A stretch of 44,213 bases of DNA, taken from assembly GCA_017396555.1 (NCBI GenBank), contig JAFQLS010000055.1, positions 1 to 44,213 on the forward strand, in the 5' to 3' direction. Shown here piece by piece: positions 13,701 through 42,959 of this stretch. Origin of the DNA: Lachnospiraceae bacterium (lineage in GTDB: Bacteria; Bacillota; Clostridia; Lachnospirales; Lachnospiraceae). Position 1 is the stretch's first letter. Each line of letters opens with the position of its first letter. The position numbers were made by a program, and so were the translations under genes. The notes under the pieces were generated by a model that saw nothing but the letters and a program-made list of their open reading frames with translations, ran no database searches and had not been told where the DNA came from.

Positions 13701-14936
13701 CTTTTCTTTTTTTGTTTTTTTGTTTTTAATCTTTTCTTTGTCTATATAATAATCATCTTCAAGAAAATAGTCTTCAGCCAAAATATGATTCTTTTCAAGT
13801 CGTTTAGAAATTGCTTTATCAGTTAAAAATGCGATAACTGCAACACAAGGGACTCCAAGAAACATTCCAATTGGGCCGGCAACCCATCCGCCTACTGTAA
13901 TAGCAAAAATAATCCATACAGGACGAAGCCCGGTGCTGTCACCAAGAATATTTGGACCAAGATAAAGACCATCAAATTGTTGAAGTGCTAAAATCATAAT
14001 GGCAAAAACCAATGCATGGTTAAAGCCGACTGTTAAAAGTATAAGTACACCGGGAATGGCACCGATAAATGGTCCGAAGTACGGTATCATATTAGTTATA
14101 CCTACGATAACACTGATAAGAACCGCGTATTTTAAACCAAGTATACTCATAAATGCAAAGCACATAAATCCGATAATTGTTGAATCAATGGTTTTGCCAA
14201 TTATAAATCCACTAAATATCTTGTTACATTCTGACAATGTTTTAATTATGCTTGTAGCACGTTCTTTTTTAAATACAGCAAATAGAAAACGTCTACAATT
14301 ATTAATCATACGATTTCTATCTATTATCAGGTAAACAGATACGATTATGGATATTATTATGTCTATTGTCCATGAAACAACCGAAATGGATGTGTTGTAT
14401 AATAATGGAAGCAATGTATCAAGAGAACCTTTAACAAAATTAATAATACTTGAACTGTTATTTTGAAGTACAGTTGATAAGTATGAAAAGTCAAACTGAG
14501 GATATTTTTTGTTAAGTGTTTCGACATAATTAATCAATTTATCATATGATGTCTGAGTACCTAAATAAATGGTTTTTAAACTTTCATATATTTGTGGAAT
14601 AATAAATATTATACATACGACAATTATTCCAAAAACTACTATGTAAGAAAATAAAATAGAAAGAGCGGTACGCAAACCACGATGTGTGAGGTGTAGTTTT
14701 GTATATAGGAAGGAGTCAGTTTTCTTAACCAAAGGATTAATCAGGTATGCAATAAATACACCAATGATGTAAGGCATTAATACGTCTAAGATTTTTTTGC
14801 AGGTATCTAATGTACTGCTCCAGTTAAAGAATAATTTTATCAAAAGTGCAGAAATAACGATTACAGCGACTGCATAAACACTGATTGTATAGTAATTTCT
14901 ATTTTTTTCAAATTTGTTCTGCTTTAGATTGTCCAT
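13674..14936 (-). CDS. AI-2E/PerM family membrane permease
   Basis: Polytopic membrane protein of 420 residues with about seven to eight membrane segments. Family features are the large loop between about residues 95 and 190 and the motif GIPY/NMIPYFGPFIGAIPG (here at about 280-300). This is followed by the conserved WVAGPIGMFLGVPCVAVI block near residue 360. The family is called AI-2 exporters, but many members carry other substrates (the YtvI/PerM group), so the true substrate is open. The last 25 residues are nearly all Lys and Glu (KIKNKKTKKEKKEKKD). The promoter at 14985-15012 fits this gene. Confidence 0.88.
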   Translation of the reverse strand: MDNLKQNKFEKNRNYYTISVYAVAVIVISALLIKLFFNWSSTLDTCKKILDVLMPYIIGVFIAYLINPLVKKTDSFLYTKLHLTHRGLRTALSILFSYIVVFGIIVVCIIFIIPQIYESLKTIYLGTQTSYDKLINYVETLNKKYPQFDFSYLSTVLQNNSSSIINFVKGSLDTLLPLLYNTSISVVSWTIDIIISIIVSVYLIIDRNRMINNCRRFLFAVFKKERATSIIKTLSECNKIFSGFIIGKTIDSTIIGFMCFAFMSILGLKYAVLISVIVGITNMIPYFGPFIGAIPGVLILLTVGFNHALVFAIMILALQQFDGLYLGPNILGDSTGLRPVWIIFAITVGGWVAGPIGMFLGVPCVAVIAFLTDKAISKRLEKNHILAEDYFLEDDYYIDKEKIKNKKTKKEKKEKKDVEN

Positions 14937-14984
14937 ATATGTGCGAAGACCTCCTGTATTTATTGTGAAATCTCTTTACAAATT

Positions 14985-15012
14985 ATTTTAACACAATGAT
15001 ATGTAATGTCAA
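14985..15012 (-). promoter_or_regulatory. Promoter of the AI-2E family permease gene
   Basis: On the minus strand a perfect TTGACA (plus 15007-15012), 16 bp, then TAAAAT (plus 14985-14990), about 50 bp upstream of the permease start. Confidence 0.6.
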
Positions 15013-15048
15013 TTATTACAAAAATTAAAAAAAAAATAAAAAAAGTGC

Positions 15049-15077
15049 TTGCATTTATTTTTTATGTGGTATATAAT
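15049..15077 (+). promoter_or_regulatory. Promoter of tRNA-Lys
   Basis: TTGCAT (15049-15054), exactly 17 bp, then consensus TATAAT (15072-15077), placing the transcription start about 25 bp before the mature tRNA 5' end at 15110. Confidence 0.8.
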
Positions 15078-15109
15078 ATCCCTTGCGTTAAGAAAACAGA
15101 ATTGAATAA

Positions 15110-15182
15110 GCGCGACTAGCTCAGTTGGTAGAGCACCTGACTCTTAATCAGGGTGTCCAGGGTTCGAACCCCTGGTCGCGCA
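15110..15182 (+). tRNA. tRNA-Lys (anticodon CUU)
   Basis: A full cloverleaf can be drawn over 73 nt. The acceptor stem is GCGCGAC/GTCGCGC. The D arm GCTC...GAGC contains AGTTGGTA. The anticodon arm CCTGA-CTCTTAA-TCAGG has anticodon CTT, and the T arm is CAGGG-TTCGAAC-CCCTG. The discriminator base is A at 15182. The 3' CCA is not encoded, since TTC follows. CUU reads AAG lysine codons, frequent in the lysine-rich proteins of this window. It is a single gene with its own promoter. Confidence 0.97.
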
Positions 15183-15190
15183 TTCACAAA

Positions 15191-15236
15191 AGGTCCCAGA
15201 CTTAGCAATATGCGGGTTTGAGGCTTTTTTTTGTTC
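15191..15236 (+). terminator. Probable terminator of tRNA-Lys
   Basis: An imperfect hairpin (CAGAC with GTTTG at its core, extended by GGTC/GGCT-type pairs) ends in a run of eight T residues at about 15225-15233, followed by GTTCTTTT. The stem is weak but the U-run and position fit. Confidence 0.5.
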
Positions 15237-15286
15237 TTTTGCAGGAAGGGATAAATACTACGAAATAATTGGCATAAATAACGACA

Positions 15287-15314
15287 AACACTATGTGTGT
15301 TGGAAATAATTTCC
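15287..15314 (+). promoter_or_regulatory. Adjacent palindromes upstream of the double-HTH regulator, possible operator
   Basis: Two inverted repeats lie side by side: AACAC-TATGT-GTGTT (15287-15301) and GGAAAT-A-ATTTCC (15302-15314). They are about 40-55 bp before the start codon of the regulator gene. No consensus promoter with good spacing was found near them. An operator role, perhaps autoregulation, is inference. Confidence 0.35.
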
Positions 15315-15355
15315 TTGATACAATAAAGCTATACTATTTCTAAAGAGGATGCTTT

Positions 15356-16060
15356 ATGTTGATAAGATATGCTGATATCGGCAAGAGATTAAGAGAAATT
15401 AGAGAAGATGAATATAAAATCAAGTCAAAAAATAATATGGCAGAAATATTTAATATTACTGTTGAATATTATGATGCGATGGAGAGGGGAAAATATTTAC
15501 CCAACATTGAAATGTTAAGTAAAATGAGTAAAAATAAAACAGATATTGATTATTTGTTGACAGGGAAGAAAATAGGACAGAGTGTTTTTTCAGAGGTATT
15601 TCTTAATTTGAATGATAATGAGAAAAGTGAAGTGAGTAAACTTCTTTTATATAAATTAAGGCTTTTGAAGGAAGGGAATAGTAAGGAAGAGATTTTGGAG
15701 ACAAGGATTAGGACATACAAAAATAAGGAAATATCTTCTTACGATAGAATCAGAGATATTATTGAAATAGAAAATAATTGTAAAAAAATGAATGCCTGCG
15801 AGATTGCAGAAGAAATGGGTGTAAGTGAAAGAAAAGTAAATCGTCTGAATAAGAATCAGAGTTATTTAAAAACAGAAGAGATAATGAATATTTTTTATAA
15901 GTACAAATATTATCCATCATACATTTTATGTGGAGAAATAAATAGTAATTCAAAAATTGACCAGGCATATATTATGTTGGAAAAATCAGAAAAAGACACA
16001 ATAATGAGTTGCGCAAAGAAATTGGCGGCATATTGTGGTGCAGGTAAACAAAATGATTGA
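15356..16060 (+). CDS. XRE-type regulator with duplicated HTH domain, agr-linked
   Basis: 234-residue soluble protein. An N-terminal Cro/CI-like domain (about 7-70) ends in the phrase DIDYLLTGK, and is followed by a helix LNLNDNEKSEVSKLLLYKLRLL (82-103). The same plan recurs in the C-terminal half. A second HTH (about 130-193, NACEIAEEMGVSERKVNRLNKNQ) ends in PSYILCGE, followed by a matching helix LEKSEKDTIMSCAKKLAAY (208-226). This suggests an ancient internal duplication. The start ATG follows AAAGAGG at about 7 nt. The 3' end overlaps the predicted agrC start by 8 bp, so the two are probably coupled. A role as regulator of the peptide-signalling locus is inferred from position only. Confidence 0.75.
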   Translation: MLIRYADIGKRLREIREDEYKIKSKNNMAEIFNITVEYYDAMERGKYLPNIEMLSKMSKNKTDIDYLLTGKKIGQSVFSEVFLNLNDNEKSEVSKLLLYKLRLLKEGNSKEEILETRIRTYKNKEISSYDRIRDIIEIENNCKKMNACEIAEEMGVSERKVNRLNKNQSYLKTEEIMNIFYKYKYYPSYILCGEINSNSKIDQAYIMLEKSEKDTIMSCAKKLAAYCGAGKQND

Positions 16061-17312
16061 AATGTTTTTTATGTGTTCAGAGTTGTTTCAGTTGCTAATA
16101 ATTTATGCATTTGCAGATAAAATGATAAAAAGGAGATATAGTCAGCCGGTTACATTTATTGGCTGGCTACTTTTATTTATTTTAGATGGGGTTATTGTAT
16201 TAAAGGTTAATAATGGAATACTTAATATGGTGATGTATTATGTTCTAATGTTAATAATACTTAGTTTTTTATATTGTTCGGATTTTCAAAATAAAATCAT
16301 GCTGGTAATCCACATTTTTGTCTATGGTGTTTTAGCTGAATTTGTTGTGTACATTTTAATGAGTTTTTTGGGAGAGATTAAGGAGGATATGTATTTTTTG
16401 ACATCTGCGTTGTCAAAGATTGTATTTAGCCTGATTGTAAGAATTACAATTATTTTAAGAAAGAAAAAGGATACAATGAATATTAGCTTAAAGCTTCTTT
16501 TGTGTGTTTTTGCTATGCCGGTTGGAACATGCACAGGCTGTATTATCCAGTATTTTATAAATAATGGATTTAATGATACATATTTGGAAATTGTATTTTA
16601 TTTGATATTTATCATCGTAAATTATGTTTCTTTTATAATGTTTGATACTATGCAGCAATATGTAATTATCAGTGCGGAAAATAGTATTTTAGAAAAAGAG
16701 TCAGAGTTTTATTATAAGCAATGCGAAAATGTACAGAATATGTGGGAGGGCTTAAGAAATTTAAAGCATGATATAAGTAACCAGTATGTATGTGAAAAGC
16801 TTATGTTACAAAAGGGAGAGTATGAAGAGCTTGAAAAGCATTATGATGATATGATAGGTAAATTAAGGTTTGATGAGATATATTCAAAGACCGGAAATAT
16901 AAAAATAGATTCGATAATTAACTACAAGCTCACAAAGATAGCAGAGCTTGGAGCACATATAATATGTAATATTAAAATACCGAAAGAAATGAAATTCGAT
17001 AATATGGATATGGTTATTATAATCGGAAATTTATTAGATAATGCTATGGACGCACTTAAGGAAGTACAGGATGGTAAGGTGGAACTTAATATAAGATATA
17101 TGGAGTCCAATTTATTGCTTAAGGTAAGTAATTCTTATGCCGGTAATAGAAGAAAATCGGCAAAAGGTGAATATATAACGACGAAAAATGATAAAAAAAT
17201 TCATGGGATGGGACTTAAAAGTGTGAAAAGGACTTTGGAAAAATATAATGGGAAATTATGCATTACGGAAGAAAAAAATGTTTTCTCAGTAAAATTACAT
17301 ATGTGTATTTGA
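16053..17312 (+). CDS. agrC: AgrC-type sensor histidine kinase (HPK10, GHKL ATPase)
   Basis: Predicted receptor for the locus's cyclic peptide. Residues 1-205 form about six membrane helices. They are followed by a coiled linker and the phosphoacceptor motif NLKHDISNQ with H239. The GHKL ATPase domain has the N-box G325-NLLDNAMDA and the G-box HGMGLKS (384-390), as in AgrC/ComD-like HPK10 kinases. The ATG at 16053 overlaps the upstream stop codon, with a weak CAGGT site about 10 nt before it. In-frame GTG codons at 16035/16038 would add six residues but have no better ribosome site. The response regulator follows after 20 bp. Confidence 0.9.
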   Translation: MIEMFFMCSELFQLLIIYAFADKMIKRRYSQPVTFIGWLLLFILDGVIVLKVNNGILNMVMYYVLMLIILSFLYCSDFQNKIMLVIHIFVYGVLAEFVVYILMSFLGEIKEDMYFLTSALSKIVFSLIVRITIILRKKKDTMNISLKLLLCVFAMPVGTCTGCIIQYFINNGFNDTYLEIVFYLIFIIVNYVSFIMFDTMQQYVIISAENSILEKESEFYYKQCENVQNMWEGLRNLKHDISNQYVCEKLMLQKGEYEELEKHYDDMIGKLRFDEIYSKTGNIKIDSIINYKLTKIAELGAHIICNIKIPKEMKFDNMDMVIIIGNLLDNAMDALKEVQDGKVELNIRYMESNLLLKVSNSYAGNRRKSAKGEYITTKNDKKIHGMGLKSVKRTLEKYNGKLCITEEKNVFSVKLHMCI

Positions 17313-17332
17313 GACAGAGAAAGGTGATACTT

Positions 17333-18043
17333 ATGAGAATTGCAATATGCGATGATGAAAACTATATAGTAGAAAGCTTAAAAGAAAAGCTTGATAAAAT
17401 ATTAAGAAAATGGTGTCTTGAATATGAGATAGTATGTTTTAATACAGGAATTGATATGCTTATTGATATAGAGATAGGTGGAATGTTTGACATAATATTT
17501 CTTGATATAGAGCTTGGAACTTATAATGGGATAAATATTGCGAAAAAACTTAGAGAGAATTATGAGATATTTGAATTGATTATTATTTCACAGTATCAAG
17601 ATTATTATAGAGATATATTTGAAGTTGATGCAAAATGGTTTTTGGATAAGCCATTTTCTGATGAGATATTAGAGAAGGCTCTGAAAAAGGTTGTTGCTAA
17701 TATATCCAAAGCCGAGGATATTATTGAATTTGCATTTAAGAAAACATTATACAGACTTAGTTTGAGGGAGATTATGTATATTGAAAGTGATAGGAGAAAG
17801 GTGCATATTTATTGTAATGATAACCACATATATGAATATTATGAAAAACTTGACAAATTGGAAGAAAAGTTTAGCAAAGGGAATTTGAAATATATAAGAA
17901 TTAGCAAGTCATATCTTATAAATGTATTATATGTTAAGAGATATTCATATGAAAATATTGAGTTAAGAAATGGAGAGATTTTCAGGATAAGTCAAGGGAA
18001 AAGAGAGTGTATCAGAGACATATTTATGGAAAAAGCCTTTTAA
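17333..18043 (+). CDS. agrA: AgrA-type response regulator (receiver plus LytTR DNA-binding domain)
   Basis: 236 residues. The receiver domain (1-125) has the acidic pair D7-D8, phosphoacceptor D58 in IIFLDIELG, S86 and K106 in DKPF. The LytTR DNA-binding domain (about 133-236) has the typical IMYIESDRRKVHIYC and YIRISKSYLINVLYVKRY blocks. The ATG at 17333 follows AAAGGTGA at about 7 nt; a longer in-frame extension to 17258 would run back into agrC and lacks a ribosome site. It presumably binds paired direct repeats, and such a pair lies 2 bp beyond its stop codon, before agrD. Cognate kinase: the gene immediately upstream. Confidence 0.93.
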   Translation: MRIAICDDENYIVESLKEKLDKILRKWCLEYEIVCFNTGIDMLIDIEIGGMFDIIFLDIELGTYNGINIAKKLRENYEIFELIIISQYQDYYRDIFEVDAKWFLDKPFSDEILEKALKKVVANISKAEDIIEFAFKKTLYRLSLREIMYIESDRRKVHIYCNDNHIYEYYEKLDKLEEKFSKGNLKYIRISKSYLINVLYVKRYSYENIELRNGEIFRISQGKRECIRDIFMEKAF

Positions 18044-18044
18044 A

Positions 18045-18075
18045 TATTACATGGTGACATGTATTTTATTACATA
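18045..18075 (+). promoter_or_regulatory. Candidate LytTR (AgrA) binding site upstream of agrD
   Basis: Two nearly identical 9-mers, TATTACATG (18045-18053) and TATTACATA (18067-18075), are spaced 22 bp start to start, two helical turns on the same DNA face. That is the layout known for LytTR-family sites. The first overlaps a small inverted repeat ACATG-GTGA-CATGT (18049-18062). A -10-like CATAAT follows at 18081-18086. Confidence 0.5.
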
Positions 18076-18109
18076 TGAAACATAATAGTTAAATAGCATG
18101 TTAATCTTG

Positions 18110-18124
18110 CCTCCGAAATGGAGG
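18110..18124 (+). promoter_or_regulatory. Hairpin covering the agrD ribosome-binding site
   Basis: CCTCC (18110-18114), a 5-nt loop, then GGAGG (18120-18124). The right arm is the core of the Shine-Dalgarno sequence GGAGGTGA of agrD, whose ATG is at 18133. The stem would hide the site until opened. Confidence 0.5.
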
Positions 18125-18132
18125 TGAGGGAA

Positions 18133-18270
18133 ATGCAGAATTATGAAAAAAATATTTTAAAAAAGATAACAGAAAAAAGCATTGAGAAATCAGCTGATTC
18201 TATATGTTTCTTTTTGTTGCACCAGCCAAAGGCGCCAACAAAACTAAGCGAGTATGCTAAGAAAAAATAA
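18133..18270 (+). CDS. agrD: AgrD-like autoinducing peptide precursor, 45 aa
   Basis: Small gene between the response regulator and agrB. The product has a charged amphipathic N-terminal leader (about residues 1-22). The core is C25-F26-F27-L28-L29, followed by the recognition tail HQPKAPTKLSEYAKKK. The layout closely matches clostridial AgrD peptides, where Cys plus four residues form the thiolactone ring and the next residues are HQP followed by a Pro/Leu-containing acidic or charged tail. By that analogy AgrB would cut after L29 to give a five-membered C-F-F-L-L ring with an N-terminal extension of unknown length. The strong GGAGGTGA site and the position upstream of agrB support translation. 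Ring boundaries are inference. Confidence 0.88.
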   Translation: MQNYEKNILKKITEKSIEKSADSICFFLLHQPKAPTKLSEYAKKK

Positions 18271-18284
18271 AATATTAAAGATTA

Positions 18285-18320
18285 AAAGATCATTTCATTT
18301 TCATTGGAATGGTCTTTTTG
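18285..18320 (+). terminator. Terminator or attenuator between agrD and agrB
   Basis: A stem of about 13 bp (18285-18297 with 18305-18317, including three G-T wobbles) and a 7-nt loop run into TTTTTG. It lies in the 70-bp gap between agrD and agrB. Partial read-through would give more propeptide than protease message. Confidence 0.7.
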
Positions 18321-18340
18321 TTTTGGAAAGGATATAAATT

Positions 18341-18892
18341 ATGTTAGATAAGATTTCTGCTAAAATAGCAAATAATTGGATAGAGAAAAAAATTATAGAT
18401 ATTAATGATAAAGAGATATACGAATATGGAATTATATTGACAATGGAATATTTGTTAAGCCTGATAACGACGGCGTTAATTGCGGTATTTACCGGGGAGG
18501 CGGTCGCAAGTGTAACATTTTATACAGGCTTTAAATATTTACGAAGTTACACAGGAGGAATTCATGCAAAGACTTTTGCAAAATGCTATGTAAGTTCATC
18601 GCTAATTATTTTGATATCTGTATTATTTATCAAATATAATATTATCAGTATTGTTGTATATAGAATGTGTGGATTGCCGGCAATTATTTATTTAGTAAAT
18701 ATTACCCCTATTGACTGTGAAAATAAAAGGGTGTCGAAGGAAGAAAAGAGAAGGTTTTGTGTGCATAAAAATAAAGTGGTAGCGGTAATTTGTTTTATAA
18801 TAGTACTAGCCGGTTTATGTGACATATCAATTATTGAGAAATCATTAGAAGCCGTGGTTATTATTGTGAGCCTGTGTTGTATATTTGCTTAA
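18341..18892 (+). CDS. agrB: AgrB-type accessory gene regulator protease
   Basis: Membrane cysteine endopeptidase that cleaves the C-terminal tail of AgrD and forms the thiolactone. It has 183 residues and about five to six membrane segments. The catalytic pair H75 and C82 sits in RSYTGGIHAKTFAKCY with the seven-residue spacing of the S. aureus enzyme (H77/C84). The conserved loop PIDCENKRVSKEEKRRF follows near residues 127-143. The ATG has AAAGGA at about 9 nt. The protein is close to the usual length. No terminator was found between it and the next operon, which has its own promoter. Confidence 0.95.
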   Translation: MLDKISAKIANNWIEKKIIDINDKEIYEYGIILTMEYLLSLITTALIAVFTGEAVASVTFYTGFKYLRSYTGGIHAKTFAKCYVSSSLIILISVLFIKYNIISIVVYRMCGLPAIIYLVNITPIDCENKRVSKEEKRRFCVHKNKVVAVICFIIVLAGLCDISIIEKSLEAVVIIVSLCCIFA

Positions 18893-18935
18893 TTTGTAAA
18901 GTTGTATAAATATGCGGACACAAATGGTTTTTTGG

Positions 18936-18964
18936 TTGAATATATAAGGCTTTTGGTGTATTAT
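18936..18964 (+). promoter_or_regulatory. Promoter of the ior operon
   Basis: TTGAAT (18936-18941), 17 bp, TATTAT (18959-18964), 33 bp upstream of the ATG at 18998 that follows AAGGAGG. Confidence 0.55.
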
Positions 18965-18997
18965 TATACAAGGATATTATTAAGGAGGGATGGTAGT

Positions 18998-19639
18998 ATG
19001 GAGTCAAGAGCAATCAAATTTCCGGCACCAAGCAATAATAAAATTAATTTGAAAGTTATTCCGGGGCATTTTGCGACGAATCACTCCCACATTAATTATT
19101 TTATTGATTTAACAACCATGAAATCAAGAGCTAATGAGGCGAGAGATATTGCAAAGACATTGGTAATGAAATATGTGAATAATACAGTGGTTGATACTAT
19201 TGTTTGTATGGATGGATGTGAAGTAATAGGAGCATATATTGCGGATGAGCTTACTGCATCAGGATTTATGTCAAGAAATGAACATAAGACCATATATGTT
19301 GTATCACCGGAATTTAACACAAATGGACAGATGATATTCAGAGATAATCTGCAGAGTACTATTGAGGGCAAGAATATTATCTTGTTACTGGCATCAGCTA
19401 CAACAGGCCAGACAATTACCAGAGCACTTGAATGTATAAATTATTATGGTGGCAGTGTTCAGGGAATATCAGCAATTTTCAGTGCTGTATCCAGTGTTAA
19501 TGGAATTGCAGTTGATACAGTATTTAGGGCAAAGGACATACCAAATTATGAAACATATCCTATGGTAGATTGTCCATTTTGTAAGAAGGGTATGAAAATT
19601 GAAGCCATTGTAAACAGTTATGGCTATTCAAAATTATAA
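18998..19639 (+). CDS. Orotate phosphoribosyltransferase-like protein with degenerate PRPP loop and CPxC motif
   Basis: 213 residues with a type I phosphoribosyltransferase fold pattern. The expected PRPP loop is present in position (NIILLLASATTGQT, about 126-139), but the acidic pair that normally precedes TTG (as in DDVxTTG) is replaced by ASA. Catalysis as a normal transferase is therefore doubtful. Near the C-terminus, C192-PFC195 followed by KKG could bind a metal. The start is taken at the ATG at 18998 because AAGGAGG lies 7 nt before it; an in-frame GTG at 18902 has no ribosome site. It heads the operon 16 bp before iorA. Its role may be regulatory or substrate binding; this is not known. 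Confidence 0.7.
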   Translation: MESRAIKFPAPSNNKINLKVIPGHFATNHSHINYFIDLTTMKSRANEARDIAKTLVMKYVNNTVVDTIVCMDGCEVIGAYIADELTASGFMSRNEHKTIYVVSPEFNTNGQMIFRDNLQSTIEGKNIILLLASATTGQTITRALECINYYGGSVQGISAIFSAVSSVNGIAVDTVFRAKDIPNYETYPMVDCPFCKKGMKIEAIVNSYGYSKL

Positions 19640-38388: not shown

Positions 38389-40665
38389 ATGAGAAACAAT
38401 TTGAAAAGAGTTTTGGCAGTAGTGTTGTCATTTGTATTAATGTTATCATTTTTAATCGCTAATGATGTAAATGTATATGCTGCTACCAAAAAAGTAACAA
38501 AGGTAGAAGTCACAAATCTAAAGAAAAAGACTTTAACAATTAATAAGGGACAGAAAAAGACCTTAAGCGTTAAGGTAACAACTACAGGGAAAAAGATTTC
38601 GACGGACTTTACAGTAAAATCAAGCAATACAAAGGTGGCAACGGTTAAAAAGTCTGGTAAAAAGGTAATCATTTCAGCAAAGAAAAATGGTAAAGCAAAT
38701 ATTACCATAACATCTAAGGCTGATAAGAAGAAAAAGACAGTAGTTAAGGTTACGGTAGTAACACCGGTTAAAAAGGTTACAATGAATACTTCAAAAGCAA
38801 CGGTTAAGTTGGGAAAAACCTTGCAGTTAAAGGCTACTGTATCAAGTGATGCAAGTAATAAAAGCTTAAAATGGACATCTTCTAATTCAGGTGTTGCAAC
38901 TGTAAATAGTAAGGGACTTGTTACAGCTAAGAAGGCAGGAAAGGCAACTATTACAGCTATGGCACAGGACGGCTCAAAGAAGAAAGCGACTTGTGTGATA
39001 ACAGTTAATGATACAAATTCGATTAAATCGGTAAAAGTGATTGAATCCCTGATAGTAGAGGTTGAACTTGAATATCCACAAAAGCTGACAAAGGCAAACT
39101 TTGCGGTACATAACAAATTAATGAGTAAAGGAAATTATGTCGCAGGCTGTGACATAGAAGCTATAGAAACAAGCGATAATAAAAAATATTATATTTATTT
39201 ATATGAATGGATTGCACTTGATAGTTTTGTGCGCGTATCAATATCAGGATTAAAAGGAGTTAGCACGCAGGCGACTAAGGAAATAACATATACAAGGGAG
39301 ACAAAAGTATTAACAGATGAAATATATGTTAAATTGGCTAGTGGAAGTGAATGTGAATACTCAATTGTACCTGAATATAATGAATATGGATACTGGACTT
39401 TTACCAATACTGCACTTCCAGCAGGGTTAAAAGTAGAGGCAAAAGGTGCTTATACAGCATTTGTATCAGGAACACCATCTAAATCAGGAATATATAATAC
39501 AACTTTTACATTTACAGATGAGGTTGGAAATGTAGAGAAAATAAAAGTAAATTTTGTAATTGGTGATACAAATACACTTACTGCAACAACTGCTCCTATG
39601 TATGGCGTTACACAAGCAAATGGTGTGTATAATTTAGACCGTTCTATTTCTAAAATAGTTTATGTTACAGGTGGAAGTGGAAATTATTCCTATGAGATTG
39701 TTGGAAATAAATACGGACTTGCATTTGATTCAAGCAATTATTTAGAAGGTACTTTTTATAATCCGGGAACTTATAAAATTAATATTAAAATAACGGATAA
39801 AAATAATACAAATCTTACCAAGACTGTGGTATGGACAGTAAATTTAAAACAAGGTATCACAGTCAGCGGAATTGTTAAGGATGCAACCGGACAGGGTATG
39901 ACAGGTGTATATGTGAAATTTATTAATGTAGATGACAATAATATGTATTATGGTTATGTTTATGATTATGGTTATTCTGATAGTACAGGAGCTTATGCCG
40001 CAGTAGTTCCGGCTGGAACATATGATGTTATAGTGTACAACGAATATATGCAGACAAAATATGCCGGAAGAAAGACGGTAACAACATCTGAATCAGGATT
40101 TGATATAGTAATGCCACTTTATAAAGTGGTTGTTTATCCGGATAATACCAAAATATCTAAATTTGGTACATGGTATGATGGTGCTGGTCAGCCTGTTGGA
40201 AGCGGAGCTTACTTATATCTTAGAGCGGGAACACATACACTTAAAACAGAAGGTACCTGTTTTGAAGGAAAATATACAGCAGTATTAAATGTAACCGTAG
40301 CAGGTAATAAGGATGCAACTGCTAAGGTAAAAATACAGCAGGTACAGCGAGAAACTATTACATTAGGGCAGACAATAAGTACTAAAATAAATAATGAATA
40401 TACTTATTACAAATTTGTTCCAACTGAGACAGGAACATATTATTTCTATTCAACATCATCATATGATACATATGGAGCTATATATGATAAGAACGGAACA
40501 ATGATTACATCAAAAGATGGTGGCGGAAAGGGTAGTAATTTTGAAATTTCCTATAAGTTTATAGCAGGAGAAACATACTATTTAGCGGCAAGAAAATATA
40601 GTGGTAGTTATTTTTCAACGGTAAGTGTTACTGTTTCAACAACATCATCAACAGCAACGAGTTAA
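38389..40665 (+). CDS. Secreted Ig-like multidomain protein, paralogue 1
   Basis: 758 residues with a signal peptide (about 1-31) and several beta domains. A Lys-rich Ig-like domain (about 33-122) and a BIG_2-type domain (about 124-205, ending VATVNSKGLVTAKKAGKATITA) come first. These are followed by a segment SVKVIESLIVEVELEYPQKLTKANF resembling SbsA-type Ig folds, and a putative He_PIG domain with LPAGLKVEAKG...SGTPSKSGIY. A carboxypeptidase-regulatory-like domain (about 490-575, ITVSGIVKDATGQGMTGV...VVPAGTYDVIVY) and a C-terminal PPC-like domain (about 655-755, YYKFVPTETGTYYFYSTSSYDTYG) complete it. No enzyme domain and no wall anchor were seen. AGGGAGGAT precedes the ATG, 24 bp after the previous gene. 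A scaffold or adhesin role is inference. Confidence 0.82.
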   Translation: MRNNLKRVLAVVLSFVLMLSFLIANDVNVYAATKKVTKVEVTNLKKKTLTINKGQKKTLSVKVTTTGKKISTDFTVKSSNTKVATVKKSGKKVIISAKKNGKANITITSKADKKKKTVVKVTVVTPVKKVTMNTSKATVKLGKTLQLKATVSSDASNKSLKWTSSNSGVATVNSKGLVTAKKAGKATITAMAQDGSKKKATCVITVNDTNSIKSVKVIESLIVEVELEYPQKLTKANFAVHNKLMSKGNYVAGCDIEAIETSDNKKYYIYLYEWIALDSFVRVSISGLKGVSTQATKEITYTRETKVLTDEIYVKLASGSECEYSIVPEYNEYGYWTFTNTALPAGLKVEAKGAYTAFVSGTPSKSGIYNTTFTFTDEVGNVEKIKVNFVIGDTNTLTATTAPMYGVTQANGVYNLDRSISKIVYVTGGSGNYSYEIVGNKYGLAFDSSNYLEGTFYNPGTYKINIKITDKNNTNLTKTVVWTVNLKQGITVSGIVKDATGQGMTGVYVKFINVDDNNMYYGYVYDYGYSDSTGAYAAVVPAGTYDVIVYNEYMQTKYAGRKTVTTSESGFDIVMPLYKVVVYPDNTKISKFGTWYDGAGQPVGSGAYLYLRAGTHTLKTEGTCFEGKYTAVLNVTVAGNKDATAKVKIQQVQRETITLGQTISTKINNEYTYYKFVPTETGTYYFYSTSSYDTYGAIYDKNGTMITSKDGGGKGSNFEISYKFIAGETYYLAARKYSGSYFSTVSVTVSTTSSTATS

Positions 40666-40691
40666 TATGCTTCAGGAAGGGAGGATTCCAA

Positions 40692-42959
40692 ATGAGAGCT
40701 AATTTGAAAAAGGTATCAGCATTGGTATTATCATTAATTTTGGTATTATCTTTTATAACAGTTAATGATGTAAATGCATATGCTGCTACTAAAAAGGTAT
40801 CAAGTATAAAAGTTACAAATTTAAAGAAAAAGACTTTAACACTTAATAAGGGACAGAAAAAGACCTTAAATGTTAAAGTAACAACAATAGGAAAAAAGAC
40901 CTCAAAGGATTTTACGGTAAAATCCAGCAATAAAAAAGTAGCAACCGTTAAAAAGTCGGGAAAAAAGGTTGTAATTACAGCAAAGAAGGATGGTAAAGCT
41001 AATATTACCATAACCTCAAAGGCTGATAAGAAGAAAAAAACAGTAATTAAGGTTACTGTAAAGACTCCGGTTAAGAAAGTTACAATGAGTTCTTCTAATG
41101 CTACCGTTAAGCTTGGTACAACATTACAGTTAAAAGCTACTGTATCAAGTGATGCAAGTAACAAAAAATTAACATGGACATCTTCAGATACAAGTGTAGC
41201 AACTGTAAGCAGTACAGGACTTGTTACGGCTAAAAAGGTGGGAAAAGCAACAATTACAGCAACAGCACAGGATGGCTCAGGGAAGAAGGCAACCTGTGTA
41301 GTAACAGTAATTAATCCTAATTCCATAGCAGGTGTAAAAGTAATAAATTCGGAAATAGTAGAGGTGACTCTTGCATATTCTCAGAAATTATCAAAAGCAA
41401 ATTTTGCTGTACATAAAAAATTCTTTGATAGAGGTAACTATCTCTCAAGTAGTGAAATAGATTATGTAGAGACAAGTGATAATAAAACATATGTAATATA
41501 TTTGAAAGACAGAATTACATATCAGGATTATGTAAGAGTATCGATATCAGGTTTATCAGGAGTTAATGGAAAGACTACTAAGGAAACATGGTTTTCTGAT
41601 AATAAAAAAGCAAAGACAAGTGAAATGTGTGTAGAACTTACTTGCGGTACTAGTTATCAAAAGCAGATTTCTCCGGAGTATATGTATGGAAGCTTTACTT
41701 TTACCAATACAACACTTCCACCTGGTATGAAGATTAATAAAGATATGGGTGGAATCTACAGTAATTATATTGAAATTGGCGGAACTCCTTCAAAGGCAGG
41801 AGTTTATAAAACAACATTTACCTGTACGGACGAAATGGGAACCGTAGAAACTATGAACGTAACTTTTTTAGTTGGAGATGAAAATAATATAGCGGCATAT
41901 GCAATACCAAAATACGGAATTACAGATGCGGAAGGTGTATATAAATCGGGTAATATGTCGTTTTCTAGCATAGTAGAGGTTAATGGAGGAAGCGGAAGTT
42001 ATAAGTATGAATTAGTAGGACAAACGGAAGGATTTTCAATTAATTCAAGTGGTTATATAAATGCTACATTAGAACCTGGAACATATAAAGTTAATATTAA
42101 GGTTACGGATAAAAATAATGAAAATATTACAACAACTACAGTATGGACAGTTAATATTAAAAAAAGCCTGGTAATTGAGGGTATTGTTAAGGATGCAGCA
42201 GGACAAAATGTAGAGTACGCAACAATGTATTTTTATAATGTAGATACAAATGACAAATATATTTATGAAAGCGATTTTTATGTAAATGCAGATGGAACAT
42301 ATAAAGCCGTATTGCCTGCAGGAACCTATGACGTTATGATATATTGTGGAAATGTAATGAAATATGTTGGCAGAAGGAATATAACTGCTAATCAATCTAA
42401 TGTGAATTATACAGTGCCTGCATATAAGATAAGCATAACATCCAATAATACAGTAATGACTTCATTTGATTATTGGTATGATAGCGAAGGCAATAGACTT
42501 GGAAGTGGAAATATATTGTATCTTAGAGCAGGAACGTATAGTTTGAAATCCGAAAAAAGTGTATTTATATCAGATTATACAGCAGTACTAAATATTACGG
42601 TAAATAAAAATGCAACAGTGACTGCAAATGTAACGGCAAAACAAAAACAGATAGCAACTATTACTGTAGGACAGACTATAGATGTTACATTGACGAATAG
42701 CGAGACATTTTTTAGGTTTACTCCAACTGTGACTGGTACATATTATTTCTATAGTACATCATCTTATGATACATATGGATATGTGTATAGTGAAACAGGA
42801 ACTAGGCTTAAGAATGATGATGATAGCGGAGAGAGTAGTAATTTTGAAATATCGTATGAATTTAAGGCTGGAACTACTTACTATCTGGCAGCAAGAAGAT
42901 ATAGTAATAGTACTCCTTTATCAGCTAGCGTTACGGTATCAACCACAACATCAGATTAA
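40692..42959 (+). CDS. Secreted Ig-like multidomain protein, paralogue 2
   Basis: 755 residues with the same domain order as the gene just upstream. The first 200 residues are nearly identical between the two, both having LKKKTL, NKGQKKTL, SKADKKKKTV and VTAKK blocks. The middle Ig-like domains have diverged, and the C-terminal PPC-like domain is again similar (TYYFYSTSSYDTYGYVYSETG). The similarity extends to the leader (GGGAGGATnTTCnAAATGAGA-like in both), so the duplication included the ribosome site. It is the last gene of the cluster, 26 bp after its sister, and is followed by a hairpin. Same predicted location and uncertain function. Confidence 0.82.
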   Translation: MRANLKKVSALVLSLILVLSFITVNDVNAYAATKKVSSIKVTNLKKKTLTLNKGQKKTLNVKVTTIGKKTSKDFTVKSSNKKVATVKKSGKKVVITAKKDGKANITITSKADKKKKTVIKVTVKTPVKKVTMSSSNATVKLGTTLQLKATVSSDASNKKLTWTSSDTSVATVSSTGLVTAKKVGKATITATAQDGSGKKATCVVTVINPNSIAGVKVINSEIVEVTLAYSQKLSKANFAVHKKFFDRGNYLSSSEIDYVETSDNKTYVIYLKDRITYQDYVRVSISGLSGVNGKTTKETWFSDNKKAKTSEMCVELTCGTSYQKQISPEYMYGSFTFTNTTLPPGMKINKDMGGIYSNYIEIGGTPSKAGVYKTTFTCTDEMGTVETMNVTFLVGDENNIAAYAIPKYGITDAEGVYKSGNMSFSSIVEVNGGSGSYKYELVGQTEGFSINSSGYINATLEPGTYKVNIKVTDKNNENITTTTVWTVNIKKSLVIEGIVKDAAGQNVEYATMYFYNVDTNDKYIYESDFYVNADGTYKAVLPAGTYDVMIYCGNVMKYVGRRNITANQSNVNYTVPAYKISITSNNTVMTSFDYWYDSEGNRLGSGNILYLRAGTYSLKSEKSVFISDYTAVLNITVNKNATVTANVTAKQKQIATITVGQTIDVTLTNSETFFRFTPTVTGTYYFYSTSSYDTYGYVYSETGTRLKNDDDSGESSNFEISYEFKAGTTYYLAARRYSNSTPLSASVTVSTTTSD

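Follow-up and report, generated by a model that had tools for sequence, protein, structure and literature searches.

The question raised by positions 15356-18892 of the DNA analysed here (the window: 44,213 nucleotides of contig JAFQLS010000055.1, assembly GCA_017396555.1, of a Lachnospiraceae bacterium) is whether the five genes found there form a complete quorum-sensing system of the agr type, and how the gene for its signal might be controlled. These genes occupy approximately 3.5 kb of the + strand, on which all the features described below are also placed, in the order XRE regulator, AgrC, AgrA, a 45-amino acid (aa) AgrD and AgrB. Judged from its sequence, the run is very probably a complete agr-type locus of an ordinary sort, for which a new signal is predicted, and belongs to a known kind. 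A complete locus had been proposed in the initial annotation, and the present analysis bears this out: all five genes are present, a family match was obtained for every part, and the run contains (i) an AgrB with its His/Cys pair, (ii) an AgrD encoded beside agrB, (iii) a polytopic AgrC, a GHKL kinase with its His, and (iv) an AgrA composed of a receiver and a LytTR domain. The individual residues named in that annotation (AgrC H239, AgrA D58, AgrB H75/C82, and AgrD C25 followed by FFLL and HQPKAP) were all found as described. Profile searches detected no other AgrB and no other AgrD in the genome of origin, which is 85% complete.

The first gene (15356-16060) encodes an XRE-type regulator of 234 aa with an N-terminal match to Pfam HTH_3 (2.9e-5); a second helix-turn-helix, near residues 131-166, was detected only below the cut-off. 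Its stop is overlapped by 8 bp by the start of the gene for the AgrC-like sensor kinase (16053-17312; 419 aa), which has seven hydrophobic segments and a GHKL ATPase domain (PF14501, 4.1e-23), H239 being counted from the ATG at 16053. A comparison with the PDB matched this protein to the kinase module of Staphylococcus aureus AgrC (E=2e-4; 6e52, 4bxi). The AgrA-like LytTR response regulator (17333-18043; 236 aa) matches Response_reg (4.5e-11) and LytTR (1.2e-12), with D58 counted from the ATG at 17333. The last gene of the run (18341-18892) encodes the AgrB peptidase/exporter (183 aa; PF04647, 1.2e-28), whose H75 and C82 were kept in all 102 of the 102 unique AgrB proteins aligned.

The AgrD pro-peptide of 45 aa (18133-18270) is read from the ATG at 18133, which is preceded by GGAGG at a spacing of 8 nt; for a longer, 50-aa reading from 18118, no ribosome-binding site is visible in the sequence. 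No Pfam family was matched by the peptide, which scores 33.3 bits (3.8e-8) in NCBI family TIGR04223, where the curated cut-off is 19, and is a regular member of it, so that the term "divergent", applied to it earlier, has to be dropped. TIGR04223 matches were found in 93 of the 397 genomes of the same taxonomic family, including the window's own. For comparison we used 125 loci, the window included, for which DNA was retrieved from at least 150 such matches; a few of them are near-identical pairs. The TIGR04223 peptides of this taxonomic family share with the window AgrD a leader, a Cys plus four residues, [HY]QP and a basic tail. After the ring, 43 of the AgrDs compared have YQP and 40 have HQP (83/125), while 21 have no Q[PED] by the pattern used. 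When the ring was cut before [HYFN]Q[PED], its length could be read in 87 AgrDs, giving 72 rings of five residues, 8 of four, 6 of three and one of seven. The hydrophobic five-residue ring proposed earlier is the best reading, and the predicted signal core of the window is C25-F-F-L-L29 (18205-18219), placed by its position before HQPKAP and by the family comparison, with a putative thiolactone closure. Conservation of the small frame beside agrB, chosen beforehand as the test that could count against the annotation, was also observed, as AgrD-family frames adjoin agrB in many relatives.

The control features around the signal gene are unusual; they comprise the placing of C-A before D-B, a leader repeat with a -10 element, a hairpin in the agrD leader and another between agrD and agrB. 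Regarding gene order, the agrBDCA locus of S. aureus has the same four components as the window in a different arrangement, and the ring sequence of its autoinducing peptide (AIP) is unlike C-F-F-L-L. The order C, A, D, B given in the initial annotation, and its difference from the staphylococcal one, were both correct, but a non-staphylococcal order is not in itself new: agrACDB (agr2) of Clostridioides difficile 027 is already described (PMC3754575). That system, like the window, has A, C, D and B in one run with B last, whereas the window has C ahead of A, begins its run with an XRE gene, and has a terminator-like hairpin in a 70-nt gap between D and B.

The order of the window is rare among the 125 loci. 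The chain met most often is A-C-D-B, in 30 loci and, behind an XRE gene, in 7 more; unlike in the window, its D and B nearly touch. On the agrD strand, adjacent A-C is present in 76 loci and C-A without A-C in 11. C-A followed directly by D, with no A before, was found in the window and in nine loci of relatives, eight of them in a single genome, G078, and only in the window is B the next gene. The orders A-C-A-D-B and C-X-A-D-B were each seen once. An XRE gene on the agrD strand forms part of the agr gene chain in 21 of the 125 loci, the window included. Of seven loci inspected in relatives with long relatives of the XRE regulator (L143, L150-L155), four have AgrA adjoining the XRE gene, and three of these also carry AgrC and an AgrB-like gene.

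Some of these relatives have layouts of their own. Genome G078 gave 13 AgrD-family matches and only 2 AgrB matches, and eight of the loci inspected there are C-A-D cassettes with no agrB next to them, an arrangement that would fit the sharing of one or two processing enzymes by many signal-receptor sets. In L151, L152 and L153, an XRE-AgrA-AgrC run faces a convergent agrB-like gene (181-230 aa), and the motif used revealed no AgrD; these are possibly agr loci with a substrate other than a recognised AgrD. The genome of the window itself contains, on three other contigs, three further AgrC/AgrA-like pairs without AgrB or AgrD. No AgrD was seen beside these pairs in the stretches read, and no second signal gene was found in the genome, TIGR04223 giving a single match; translations inspected by eye placed a YD-repeat-like gene after one pair, and ABC transporter genes beside one and near another.

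Analysis of the region just upstream of agrD revealed an exact 8-nt direct repeat with a period of 22 bp, TATTACAT-N14-TATTACAT (18045-18074), a predicted AgrA box. Base shuffles of the gap produced an equally long exact repeat at period 22 in 7 of 5000 cases, and at 21 or 22 in 17 of 5000. Repeats with at least 9 of 10 matches were present at periods of 21 and 22 in 16 and 7, respectively, of 119 unique agrD leaders, while each of the other periods (12-40) gave 0-5. The motif derived de novo from the agrD leaders was ATTTTTACAAAAaA; within the window leader it scores best, with 8.0 bits, at the second repeat. A predicted weak extended -10, TG-T-TAATCT (18099-18107; hexamer 18102-18107), lies 33 nt from the core of this second repeat. 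At the same distance from the second box core, a TAxxxT hexamer was found in 13 of the 25 leaders with strong box pairs (a 12-bit line, below which the window pair, with 6.6 bits, falls), compared with 0-3 at other offsets (15-55). Transcripts start 6-8 nt downstream of a -10, and the agrD transcript of the window is accordingly predicted to start at about 18113-18115.

Predicted repeats before agrD recall S. aureus, in which AgrA binds two direct repeats upstream of its promoters (PMC4227749); in operons of LytTR regulatory systems, direct repeats are mostly 12 bp apart, with a minority at 11 or 13 (PMC6193735). We also tried to use the 22-bp repeat as a guide to an AgrA regulon. With up to two mismatches it gave 18 genome sites (that of the window included) against 13 for a reversed control, so no regulon can be read from it. 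An RNAIII-like effector is not known to be a general feature of clostridial agr.

The Shine-Dalgarno sequence of agrD (18120-18124) is covered by a 10-bp hairpin (18105-18129; arms 18105-18114 and 18120-18129) of -14.1 kcal/mol. This energy, for 29 nt, was equalled by 1 of 200 shuffles, and that of a 56-nt context (-19.2 kcal/mol) was matched by none of 200. With a predicted accessibility of 0.000, the agrD site ranks last among 120 agrD leaders, and the folding energy of the leader is the lowest among those scored; the site is also more hidden than all 68 other gene starts in the stretches of the same genome, the next lowest being agrB (0.009). A hidden site is not a rule of the family: the median for the 120 agrD leaders is 0.68 unpaired, with 4 below 0.05 and 5 below 0.1, and there is no enrichment over the neighbouring agr and XRE genes, 123 starts of which include 4 and 6 below the same two limits. 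When RNAs with different starts were folded in silico, the agrD site was hidden (<=0.01) for starts at 18110 or before, and rose to 0.19 at 18111, 0.67 at 18112 and 0.75-0.87 at 18113-18116. Next to that of the window, the most hidden leaders are those of G014, G246 and G362, and they behaved likewise, being hidden on a long RNA and 0.6-0.9 unpaired from the start predicted by their -10. Their hairpins differ, but the layout is shared with the window: a box core, a hexamer of their own at 33 nt from the second core, and an anti-Shine-Dalgarno arm that either overlaps the predicted start or precedes it.

A second, terminator-like hairpin (18284-18318), with a 14-bp stem and a T-rich tail, lies between agrD and agrB; the fold of 18280-18322 has a z of -4.6. 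The gap of 70 nt in which it is located compares with a median of 1 nt over the 64 loci with B after D, and only six of these, the window included, have a gap of 60 nt or more. This hairpin may lower AgrB relative to AgrD.

Several observations weigh against a working locus with an AgrA-dependent agrD promoter. At 47 of 176,714 window positions, counting both strands and its own place, the score is at least as high as that of the paired AgrA box of the window (6.6 bits). For 10-mer repeats, period 22 gives at best 8/10, a score also reached at period 29. The -10 hexamer agrees with TATAAT in 3 of 6 positions and scores 1.6 bits with the top motif of the motif search, among whose solutions the -10-like GTGaTAtaAT was only a lower-scoring one; a scan with consensus promoters listed none on the + strand at the predicted agrD -10. 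The hidden ribosome-binding site could mean poor expression. Finally, no close AgrB orthologue was found, the best identity, self aside, being 34% in a set of 61 genomes and 33% in the 397 genomes of the family, both of which include the genome of origin. One scan of a set of genome contigs gave a single AgrB match (30% identity), and viral contigs and phages gave nothing, although records near the window's own genome are possibly absent from these sets.

One reading of the leader, with which its layout agrees, is that agrD is gated by the start of its RNA: read-through RNA would yield no AgrD, and only RNA begun at the AgrA promoter would be translated. We put this forward tentatively and regard it as rather doubtful; the start sites are themselves predicted. 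Under such a gate, read-through RNA from XRE-agrC-agrA would carry the whole hairpin and hide the Shine-Dalgarno sequence, whereas RNA from the AgrA promoter would begin at the end of the left arm and leave it free. The signal would then be made only with AgrA active, and the loop would be off at low density. Caution is needed, as a promoter so near agrD partly forces, by geometry, a partner arm upstream of the start. We consider it moderately probable that the leader hairpin and the terminator-like hairpin instead arose by chance or serve for simple tuning, without acting as a switch. At agrD, strongly hidden sites are no commoner than at the neighbouring starts, the leader hairpin was noticed post hoc, and an Rfam search of 14900-19100 gave nothing but a tRNA above the gathering score and, with E up to 1, one additional sub-threshold match on the other strand of this tRNA. 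Against chance or tuning stand the rank of this leader, the most hidden of 120 and of the lowest folding energy among those scored, the absence of an equally hidden site among the 68 other starts, and the rarity with which shuffled sequences fold equally well. Among the matches listed in open-access literature, no publication dealt with an agrD hairpin or a hidden ribosome-binding site together with read-through.

The form of the mature signal leaves room for another alternative, namely that it is not a bare five-residue thiolactone but keeps an N-terminal tail (e.g. residues from S20-I24) or rearranges to a head-to-tail amide ring. This has a substantial chance of being true, if somewhat below even. 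The N-terminal cut is unreadable from the sequence, and tail-free pentameric AIP thiolactones convert spontaneously to an amide ring by an S-to-N acyl shift (PMC11297923), as the window thiolactone may do by analogy if it has no N-terminal tail. The sequence offers nothing against this alternative, which would change the chemistry of the product but not the identity of the locus. The position of the ring has a parallel in Clo1313_2818 of Clostridium thermocellum, an AgrD-type peptide for which liquid chromatography-tandem mass spectrometry confirmed a mature pentapeptide of residues 25-29, with Y30 and a conserved P35 coming after it (PMC5322536). C25-L29, H30 and P35 of the window AgrD fit this pattern. 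The C. thermocellum product is a serine lactone with no apparent agr operon around its gene, whereas the window peptide has a cysteine and is encoded within a full operon.

A decayed or cheating locus, with a functional sensor and too low a signal output, is very improbable: the ribosome-binding sites of agrD and of agrB, the latter behind a terminator-like hairpin, are both predicted to be hidden (0.009 for agrB), but all five frames are intact, every catalytic residue is retained and agrD scores above the family cut-off.

For the complete agr locus favoured here, the following sequence of events, from processing, ring closure and secretion to sensing, AgrA binding and the role of the XRE regulator, is predicted. 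AgrB would cut the 45-aa AgrD after L29 and close C25-F-F-L-L into a five-residue thiolactone, which a second cut would free from the AgrD leader. The secreted ring would bind the membrane sensor AgrC, which would phosphorylate AgrA at D58. AgrA would then bind the 22-bp-spaced repeats just upstream of agrD and raise transcription of agrD(B), giving a positive loop. Control of the sensor operon probably lies with the XRE regulator encoded upstream.

As for its surroundings, the agr run has a GC content of 28.6%, compared with 34.2% for the window, and is about its lowest 3.5 kb (2 of 204 stepped segments are as low). A horizontally acquired island at tRNA-Lys was considered and rejected, as the five genes have a third-position GC of 0.25-0.33, no lower than the 0.21-0.27 of nine other genes, and no foreign origin is claimed. 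The run is followed by a phosphoribosyltransferase-like gene (18998-19639), with a sub-cut-off match to orotate phosphoribosyltransferase models, which directly precedes the gene for indolepyruvate ferredoxin oxidoreductase alpha. Within approximately 1.5 kb of the phosphoribosyltransferase-like gene, neither agr genes nor an indolepyruvate oxidoreductase gene were found in any of the 29 loci of relatives among the matches listed; as the latter pairing is also missing there, the flank cannot be used as an empty site. Elsewhere in the window (38389-42959), two adjoining proteins of 758 and 755 aa both carry a Big_2 immunoglobulin-like domain at residues 126-200, and are probably a tandem duplicate.

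Agr genes of rumen Firmicutes have already been published (PMC10838665). To the agr systems common in this taxonomic family, the locus adds one predicted signal, the C-F-F-L-L ring, together with its own receptor. If the gating of agrD by the start of its RNA were true, it would provide agr loops with an extra safeguard against leaky signalling, and this is the one reading that would raise the interest of the locus.

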